Shown here piece by piece: positions 46,701 to 49,700 of a stretch of 64,000 nucleotides of DNA. The translations under genes were made by a program, and so were the position numbers. This stretch comes from Candidula unifasciata (Eukaryota; Mollusca; Gastropoda; Stylommatophora; Geomitridae). The notes under the pieces are model-generated. The model ran no database searches, was not told where the DNA came from, and was given only the letters and a program-made list of their open reading frames with translations. Numbering within the stretch: position 1 is the stretch's first letter; each line of letters starts with the position of its first letter. The DNA lies in NCBI GenBank assembly GCA_905116865.2, contig CAJHNH020004935.1, positions 22,501 to 86,500 of the forward strand, given 5' to 3'.

Positions 46701-49700
46701 CATTGTTAATTCGCATATAGATCTTGGCTTGAGCTACTAACAGTCTAGACTCTACCGATGTTCGCCCAAGCGTATATCTCATTGTTCTAATTGGTGTATC
46801 TCGTATGCAGCCTAAAGCGATTCAAGTTCAAGAATCCGTTCGTTTTGTACGTTGTGAATTAAATAGAGGTACAATTCCTAGACCGTTATAAATTACTGAA
46901 AGGACCAAATGGTTGTTCAATAAGACCAATAGTCTTTGTTCCTTGCGTGTGGCCATTATCGTCTTCAGTGCCACCACGCCACCTTGCATTTAATCACAGT
47001 CTGCTCTTTGGACATCCTCATACTCAATTCTCATGCTCTATTCTCTGAGGCAGCAGCTATTCCAAGGTACCTCTATTGATTGTTTCCATGCGAAGTTACT
47101 TCTAGTGTCTCCCGTCATGGCCTCGAAGACGTCATAGACGTGCTTCACCAAGCTTTATCCCCAGGTCATTTTTATATATGTGCATTGCCTCTATTTCTTC
47201 TACAGGTATGCTATGGACAGCACCTGAGTTGCTACGGATGACCTACCGCCCACCGGAAGGAACCGTCAAAGGGGATGTCTACAGCTTTGCCATCATCTGC
47301 CAAGAAATTGTTTACAGAAATGGAGTATTCTACATACAGCATTATGATCTGTCGCCACAAGGTATGTAAGTAAGTAAGTAAAGACCCTTTCACGCCTTTA
47401 GGCGTATCGGGCATATGGGAAGAGCGCCCATATTTTTACAGACCATCAGCACTCGGTGGGTAATGTGGTCAGCATTACGCCGGCTGTCTTTACTTTCCCA
47501 GGACAGCCCATCCTGGTACCCATTTGAGGCTAGGTCGACCTGCGACGTCCCATACCACGATAAAAATCCACGCAGCCCGCAGTGGGTTTCGATCGCGGTA
47601 CGTTGGATTACGAGTCGGACTCGCAACGCTTTAGCCACGGACGCCGCCACAAGGTATGTAGGAAGCCATAATCAAGCTAAATGTGTATGTTTGGGCGAGA
47701 GAATCTGGTAATCTGGTAATCCTAGTTTCCAGATTTGGGCGAGAGAAGGGGGTGGGGAGAGTGAGAGAGATAGAGAGAGAGAGAGGGTAGAGGTAGAGAA
47801 AGTATTAAAAGACTAAAAAGAGTTTGGGGACAAAAAAGAGAGAGGGTGGGGTGGATGTTGAATGAGTTTTCGTCTTCATTGTCTACTTTGATATGATATT
47901 TAAAAGTACCTGCTACTTTGATATGATATTTAAAAGAACTTGCTACTTTGATATGATATTTAAAAGTCCCTGCTTCTTTGATATGATACTTAAAAGTACC
48001 TGCTACTTTGATATGATATATTTAAAAGTACCTGCTGTTTTGATATGATACTTAAAAGAAAGTAATCACACACACAAAAAAGAAAGAAAACGAAAAATTA
48101 GAACAAAGAAGAAGCAAACATTGCACCTGGTCTTGAGTGGGTACCGGGCGCAGTTCCTGGAAGAAAAGGCGGCCTGTGTGATGCTGACCACATCACCCAT
48201 CTTGTGCCGATTGGTCTTTAAAAATATAGGTCTAGCCCTATATGCCCTATAAGCCTAAAGGCGTGGAAGAGGGTCGTTCACTTACTTTTTACTTTGATAG
48301 TTTGTTGTATCTAGTCAGGTGTAAACAACAGTAACAATAAATACGATAAATCAAATAAATTAAATCTTCCAATGTAATAACAATATCTTCTCCATTTAAA
48401 TTACCCAATTTGTTTTATCTGGGTACAGCCATGTTTATTGCTATAATATGGGAGTGGGAGAGGCTGCGTGGTCTAGAGGTATGTTGTCTGCCTCGAGAGC
48501 TAGAGGTCCTGTGTTCAGGGCACGGTGAGGGCTGGGATTTATTTCTGTTAGCGTGGACTTCTTGTAATTTTCCTTGATCTGGTTGCGCACATTAAAAAAG
48601 AACGTTTTCACTTGGAAATCGAAAAGAGTAGCCAAACGGTGGTACCCGCGCCAAATTTTGAGTTAAATATCTACCTAAAATATTTCAGGAACCTCGCCGG
48701 TACTACGGAGTTCGCTCACTGAGCTGAGATTCTTCAGACTCGGGCTCGAGTTAGCAGTAGAACGAAGCACTTATAGGTTACTACTCCTGTGGCATGATGT
48801 TGATCTGTCGTTCAAACTTCAAAAACTTTTTTTTTTTGGCTATAGTAAGCATCTAACAAGGTATAGCGAAATATAACGGGTTATAATATGTAATTTATGT
48901 TGTTTGTGTGTTGCTCACATTTACAATATTGTTTTAATTTTCTAAAGGGAAAAATTAAATGGAATTCCTAGCTACATTGCTTAGCTACATTGACGGTTGC
49001 ATAGGTTAGTTACATGGGTTACCTACATAACTTACCTAACTGGCTTGTCTACATGGATTGGCTACAAACATGCCTGGCAAAATGGCTTGGCTACATTGTT
49101 CAGCTATATTAATTGCTATAAGTCGTGGCTAAATGGCCTTGCTACGTAGTTTAGCTACATTGCTTGGCTAAATGGTTTGGCTGCATGGTTTGGATACGTG
49201 GCCTGGCTACATTCCTTGACTATATATGGCTTGACGATTTGGCTATATGGCTTGCCTTTATGGCTATATGGCTTGCCTTTATGGCTATATGGCTTGCATT
49301 TATGGCTATATGGCTTGCCTACACACCTGTAAAAAAAAAGGAAAAATTATCTGAAAAGTGCAAAAGTAAGAAAACGATTAAGCTACATTGTTTTGCTATA
49401 TGACTAGGCTACATCGTTTCGCTACATGTCTTTGCTATAAGGCTTGGCCATAGGGCTTGGCTATAGGGCTGGGCTATAGTGCTTGGCTATAAAGCTTTAA
49501 AGTTTTTGTGTGTATTTTTTTTTTCAACGACAACTAGCAGTTATGTATCTAAAAAACCCAGTGAAAGACTTGGCATGTCTGCATTGCTCAACTGCTATTT
49601 GTCTACATTGACGTGTTACATGTCTTTGCTGCACAGCTACAAAATAATTTATAATTTATCGACAATTAATCATTCTGATCGGAAAAGTTCATGTAGAAAA

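Follow-up and report, generated by a model that had tools for sequence, protein, structure and literature searches.

In the snail Candidula unifasciata, a full-length SINE appears to have inserted recently in antisense orientation at the junction of exon 13 and intron 13 of a gene for a receptor guanylyl cyclase; judging from the sequence, this insertion duplicated 13 bp spanning the 5' splice site, so that the donor was preserved and not broken. It is very likely that the insertion is tolerated, the first donor being kept in use and the second copy being mostly or entirely silent. Splicing would continue at the first copy leaving the whole SINE intronic, and the insertion may have persisted because the duplication rendered it nearly neutral. 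All positions refer to the window, i.e., the whole 64-kb stretch of DNA that was analyzed, which sits at 22501-86500 of a contig of 486,010 bases and does not contain any N (Table 1).

Table 1. Features at the junction of exon 13 and intron 13 (window numbering; for acceptors the first base after the site is given; a slash marks the splice junction).
Feature	Position	Strand	Remarks
Exon 13, kinase homology domain	47206..47361	+	156 nt, phase 1-1, ends CAAG at donor gtatgt
CGC of the exon	47353..47355	+	probable chance match to the SINE end, making the direct repeat 16 instead of 13 bp long
Left target site duplication copy, CACAAGGTATGTA	47356..47368	+	13 bp; 6 exon and 7 intron bases; proximal donor 47361/47362
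Antisense SINE tail (47369-47383) with edge of the target site duplication	47366..47383	+	GTAAGT at 47366, 47370 and 47374 (+4, +8, +12)
TAA stop in frame for transcripts extending beyond 47361	47367..47369	+	last base from the SINE; TAG in the empty site
Full-length SINE, antisense	47369..47647	-	tail at 47369, GCGGCG 5' end at 47647
Candidate acceptor in the SINE, cctttag/GCG	47402	+	matrix score 4.6
Candidate acceptor in the SINE, tttttacag/ACC	47442	+	matrix score 5.2
Candidate acceptor in the SINE, ctttcccag/GAC	47502	+	matrix score 0.9
Right target site duplication copy	47648..47660	+	13 bp; holds distal donor 47653/47654
Exon 14	49873..49969	+	spliced to 47361 in the conserved as well as the deposited protein

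The receptor gene, the SINE and the target site duplication

Nine exons of the window, located in between 42790 and 61645, join into an open chain of 340 residues that contains Pfam kinase and Guanylate_cyc domains and is matched end to end by atrial natriuretic peptide receptor 1 (NPR1) chains (E ~6e-134). The spliced product of these exons is found letter for letter in the deposited C. unifasciata protein P0121, which likewise derives from a contig of 486,010 bases, carries the domains PF01094, kinase and PF00211 and shows the architecture of a natriuretic-peptide-type receptor guanylyl cyclase with extracellular ligand, kinase homology and cyclase domains in one chain. Mapped by matches of more than 85% identity, the exons of the deposited protein span 4708-75552 in window numbering, neighbouring contig stretches included, those beyond the nine being known from alignments alone. 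Counted from 4708, and including homologue-placed exons near 9806, 22723 and 29335, the exon next to the SINE is the 13th. As the nine joined exons are open and the deposited protein maps over this whole range, the receptor gene looks intact. The initial annotation had placed a SINE at the donor of a kinase-domain exon, and this is borne out.

Two deposited snail chains, P0005 from Nucella lapillus and P0208 from Bulinus truncatus, are receptor guanylyl cyclases annotated as 'Nitrogen permease regulator 2', apparently due to a mix-up of the symbol NPR2. On the minus strand, an open frame of 402 residues at 36890-38095 matches zf-RVT below threshold (20.7 bits, cut-off 27.5) and is probably what remains of a LINE within an intron of the receptor gene. 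Between exons 10 and 11, the stretch 43365-44192 holds open frames resembling by eye a mariner-type transposase; a Pfam search with two of these frames gave no match.

The element at exon 13 belongs to an abundant family. A search of the 1.34-Gb assembly (7,176 contigs) resulted, among the best 40 of 4,632 candidates, in 39 full-length matches of 95-98% identity besides the exon 13 SINE and in one fragment of 77%, and the 17-mer from the SINE 5' end has 2,007 exact copies in the genome. The family thus consists of numerous short and similar copies that are scattered over the genome and share their ends, and these copies carry target duplications at variable sites and a simple-repeat 3' tail composed of CTTTA, CTTA or T-rich units. 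From the 40 full-length scored matches, 28 including the exon 13 copy were examined and 12 were left out; all 28 are best matches to the exon 13 copy, biasing the sample to low divergence. Against the consensus of these 28 copies, the exon 13 SINE shows three substitutions in 265 positions, suggesting that its insertion is recent. As regards a tRNA-like head with box A and box B, ARAGORN found no genes and Rfam no matches at gathering scores; by eye, GATCGAAACCC resembles a box B. A motif search of the literature for a family name returned nothing of use.

Two further copies of about 92% identity lie in the window (23109-23361 and 24271-24544), and no clear duplication was found around these older copies at 23 and 24 kb. 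Weaker matches (67-77%), mostly to the 3' half of the SINE, occur at 48125-48287 and at 14 other places in the window, which suggests older or related families sharing this half.

The exon 13 SINE is bracketed by a direct repeat of 16 bp, CGCCACAAGGTATGTA, at 47353-47368 and 47645-47660, the two copies being 100% identical and 292 bp apart from start to start, without a third exact copy in the 64-kb window. The true duplication is most likely the 13-bp CACAAGGTATGTA, the additional CGC being the exon's own and matching the SINE end by a three-base coincidence. This shorter length follows from the ends of the family: GCG precedes GCGTCCGTGG at the start of 27 of the 28 copies, i.e., the elements begin with GCGGCG, and duplications anchored at this start measure 13 bp in 10 of the 28 copies and 8-12 bp in 12 (with those of L008 and L034 being doubtful as they lie far from the tail), but never exceed 13 bp. 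For the remaining six copies no anchored duplication was found. The value of 13 bp for the exon 13 copy depends on counting GCG as part of the element, and the nine other 13-bp copies serve as the standard. A looser, unanchored search gives 16 bp for the exon 13 copy and 30 bp for L034, the latter coming from a longer repeat in its flank, and the anchored figures were used instead. Random pairs of flanks share 16 or more bases in 63 of 3,000 cases, likely caused by simple repeats in the window, and this value was not used as chance estimate.

The donor of exon 13 lies inside the 13-bp duplication, as in a splice-site-spanning target duplication of the Merle kind. Two claims of the initial annotation are modified by these data. 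It had read the duplication as 16 bp including nine exon bases; the 16-bp repeat is indeed identical, whereas the duplication proper comprises 13 bp with six exon bases. It had also reported a second exon end and donor 291 bp downstream; the identical copy exists at a distance of 292 bp.

Donor choice and the products of other splicing

Several lines of evidence point to the proximal donor. Joining 47361 to 49873 yields ...DLSPQ/EIYQKV..., and the P-x-E motif runs uninterrupted across the junction in all 14 aligned homologues, chosen from 120 listed matches out of 881. The deposited protein P0121 is spliced at 47361 as well. Its annotation combined homology evidence with introns drawn from RNA-seq mapping, using PASA and EVM, and retains a single mRNA for each gene (PMC8496239 Table 4); being led by homology and limited in this way, it supports the proximal junction and cannot rule on minor isoforms. 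At the paralogous loci of the genome that were compared, which leave out L014 and L018, the exon likewise ends with CCACAAG/GT by eye in L011 and L015, the next exon lying further on, and L019 has a GT donor at the same place in a different sequence. Moreover, it was shown in a designed reporter library that the first of two consensus tandem donors is predominantly used and that the first is favored at equal strength, which its authors regard as settling earlier conflicting evidence on tandem donors (PMC6783452); the variable regions of this non-snail library measure 147-162 nt, placing the spacing of 292 nt outside of the tested range.

Donor strength was estimated roughly by the U1 duplex energy and a small matrix, the donor and acceptor matrices being built from only nine introns. 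By both measures the proximal and the distal donor are equal, with a duplex energy of -8.4 and a matrix score of 12.2 (11.4 when the native site is omitted). The nine real donors of the receptor gene score 2.9-11.4 on leaving one out, and its nine real acceptors 1.5-10.8. The SINE tail, CTTTACTTACTTACT, adds three GTAAGT sites, which the initial annotation had not mentioned; for those at +4, +8 and +12 the duplex energies are -7.0, -7.2 and -7.2 and the matrix scores 5.0, 7.6 and 7.6, respectively. Three such motifs are the maximum among the 28 family copies, 19 of which have none. The lowest duplex energy overall (-10.2) belongs to the GT after 47455 in the SINE body, which scores 0.2 by the matrix and agrees with the consensus at five of nine positions. 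A silent second donor has to be reconciled with a distal site that is undecayed and as strong as the native one and with a SINE-body GT surpassing both by U1 energy. However, as the SINE differs from its consensus at three of 265 positions only, an undecayed second donor does not need selection to be explained.

A transcript spliced at the distal donor reads CAA GGT ATG TAA, and use of this second copy or of the tail sites +8 and +12 would lead to a stop two codons past the exon, whereas use of the tail site +4 would shift the frame. The predicted distal product consists of 476 of the 797 deposited residues followed by GM, comprising the extracellular part, the transmembrane segment and a portion of the kinase homology domain. 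The initial annotation was therefore right about the consequence, i.e., that the distal donor would retain the SINE, meet TAA and lose the cyclase domain. The SINE is not the cause of the stop: the reconstructed empty site reads CAA GGT ATG TAG, and as it stops at the same codon the stop predates the SINE. A premature stop upstream of many exon junctions exposes a message to nonsense-mediated decay. As many junctions lie downstream of this stop, messages of the distal type would be expected to be removed by this route.

The alternative of leaky poison splicing is rather unlikely. Here, some transcripts would use the distal donor, the tail donors or a cassette exon derived from the SINE, with receptor output falling. 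The cassette would take its acceptor from inside the antisense SINE and its donor from the duplicated site, resulting in early stops or frameshifts; as an example, a cassette of 47502-47653 would read QGQPILVPI and then stop. Such leakage would be in line with a distal donor matching the native one in strength, with tail sites +8 and +12 that fall within the range of real donors and with the SINE acceptors at 47402 and 47442, which fall within the range of real acceptors, and a similar outcome at an acceptor is described for canine Merle (PMC7349775, PMC6091007). However, the matrices derive from nine introns only, the tail sites carry A or T at -1, and about 4-5% of the 3,874 AG sites of the window reach scores as high as those of the two acceptors, which makes the latter unremarkable and to be expected in any stretch of 280 bp. 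A related and quite improbable idea is that the exon has become a self-contained splicing competition unit, in which the native donor, the GTAAGT ladder, the SINE acceptors and a perfect second donor together form a ready-made poison exon created by a single transposition event. As with Merle, its dose might depend on the length of the tail, and it may still segregate in snail populations.

The initial annotation offered a choice between a ready-made switch and a site that splicing has to ignore. The conserved proximal junction (SPQ/EIYQK), the deposited protein, the preference for first donors and the premature stop on the distal side fit the ignored site better. It is very improbable that the full receptor alternates in a regulated way with a truncated form that lacks the cyclase and acts as dominant-negative or ligand-trapping receptor. 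In its favor, the distal product would retain the extracellular part, the transmembrane segment and some of the kinase homology domain, and the identity of the two donor sequences could be taken for it, but this identity is explained by youth, the insertion is too young for a conserved second donor, the message would be expected to decay with so many junctions following an early stop, and, the stop being older than the SINE, read-through alone would already give the same product. It is hardly credible that the duplication is an assembly artefact absent in the animal. The published assembly did undergo haplotig purging (PMC8496239), but the element is a full-length representative of an abundant family, the direct repeat flanks it at family-typical ends, and the duplication has a family-typical length, all of which is what insertion produces.

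Two simple-sequence tracts lie near these sites. Intron 13 contains a tandem array of 30-bp units at 47883-48058 (5.8 copies, 88% matches), about 220 bp past the distal donor copy. About a dozen bases past the exon 14 donor, a (TTC)n run of 205 bases (49982-50186; 99% matches) begins, and a run of this length and purity so near to the donor might influence splicing or stability.

Known systems, empty site and chance expectation

The closest likeness is the Merle SINEC_Cf insertion in canine PMEL, which shares with the snail case an antisense SINE, the intron-exon boundary and a target duplication at a splice site; the Merle duplication measures 15 bp, and the original and the alternative site are described to compete (PMC7349775, PMC6091007). 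However, Merle concerns an acceptor with an alternative acceptor inside the SINE and has reported transcripts and a phenotype, whereas in the snail a donor is duplicated. By its anatomy, the snail case is a donor-side member of the Merle kind, any alternative product being a prediction. In the Alu insertions in NF1 intron 14, a retroelement likewise strikes a splice site and is accompanied by a short target duplication, but the site is an acceptor and the insertions were found in human patients (PMC3219598). In antisense Alu exonization, an antisense SINE also brings potential acceptors (PMC7349775), whereas in the snail it is the duplicated exon end that would supply the partner donor, with exonization being a prediction only. 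Introners share with the snail case that a transposon target duplication supplies a donor, but they create new introns (PMC9860276), whereas the snail intron pre-existed. An introner identity was rejected, as the intron is present at the same position in the paralogous loci L011 and L015. In the literature searched, no title was headed by the duplication of a donor by a retroelement, which does not prove its absence.

A search of the assembly for the pattern of the pre-insertion site with up to three mismatches gave no matches, and exon 13 with its upstream intron matched at full length only itself among the best 40 of 2,893 candidates. As the published assembly is described as purged of haplotigs (PMC8496239), the absence of an empty site is uninformative regarding polymorphism. 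The sequenced specimen has a heterozygosity of about 1.09% (PMC8496239), so it is possible that the SINE allele is segregating in the snails.

Seven of the antisense copies carry AGGTRWGT no more than 10 nt from the end of the SINE. In two of these, L057 and the exon 13 copy, the motif lies within the duplication found; in L061 the duplication holds just the first base of the motif, and for the other four no duplication was found. L057 has an 11-bp duplication, AGGTAAGTATA, containing a perfect donor motif, but no exon is evident beside it by eye, its flank meeting a stop in each of the three frames after at most about 20 codons, although a short exon is conceivable. Of L057, L061 and the exon 13 copy, which were inspected by eye, the latter is the only one with the motif in a found duplication at a recognizable exon.

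One such case is about what chance predicts. Assuming uniform insertion and 125,319 coding introns, a number obtained by subtracting 22,464 genes from 147,783 coding exons (PMC8496239 Table 4), 0.98 (whole donor) to 1.96 (AG/GT only) donor-spanning 13-bp duplications are expected per 2,007 insertions. The two identical donors in one gene, arising from one recent event and differing only in distance and context, would provide a natural test of donor choice. If use of the distal donor is seen, this would be the donor-side counterpart of Merle; if it is absent, target duplications would let elements land harmlessly on splice sites. Moreover, chance predicts one to two cases for every 2,000 insertions, and a genome-wide total of 208 to 416 if all of the 427,509 SINE copies counted (PMC8496239 Table 3) are whole insertions with 13-bp duplications; the donor-spanning class may therefore be common and can be tested in bulk.
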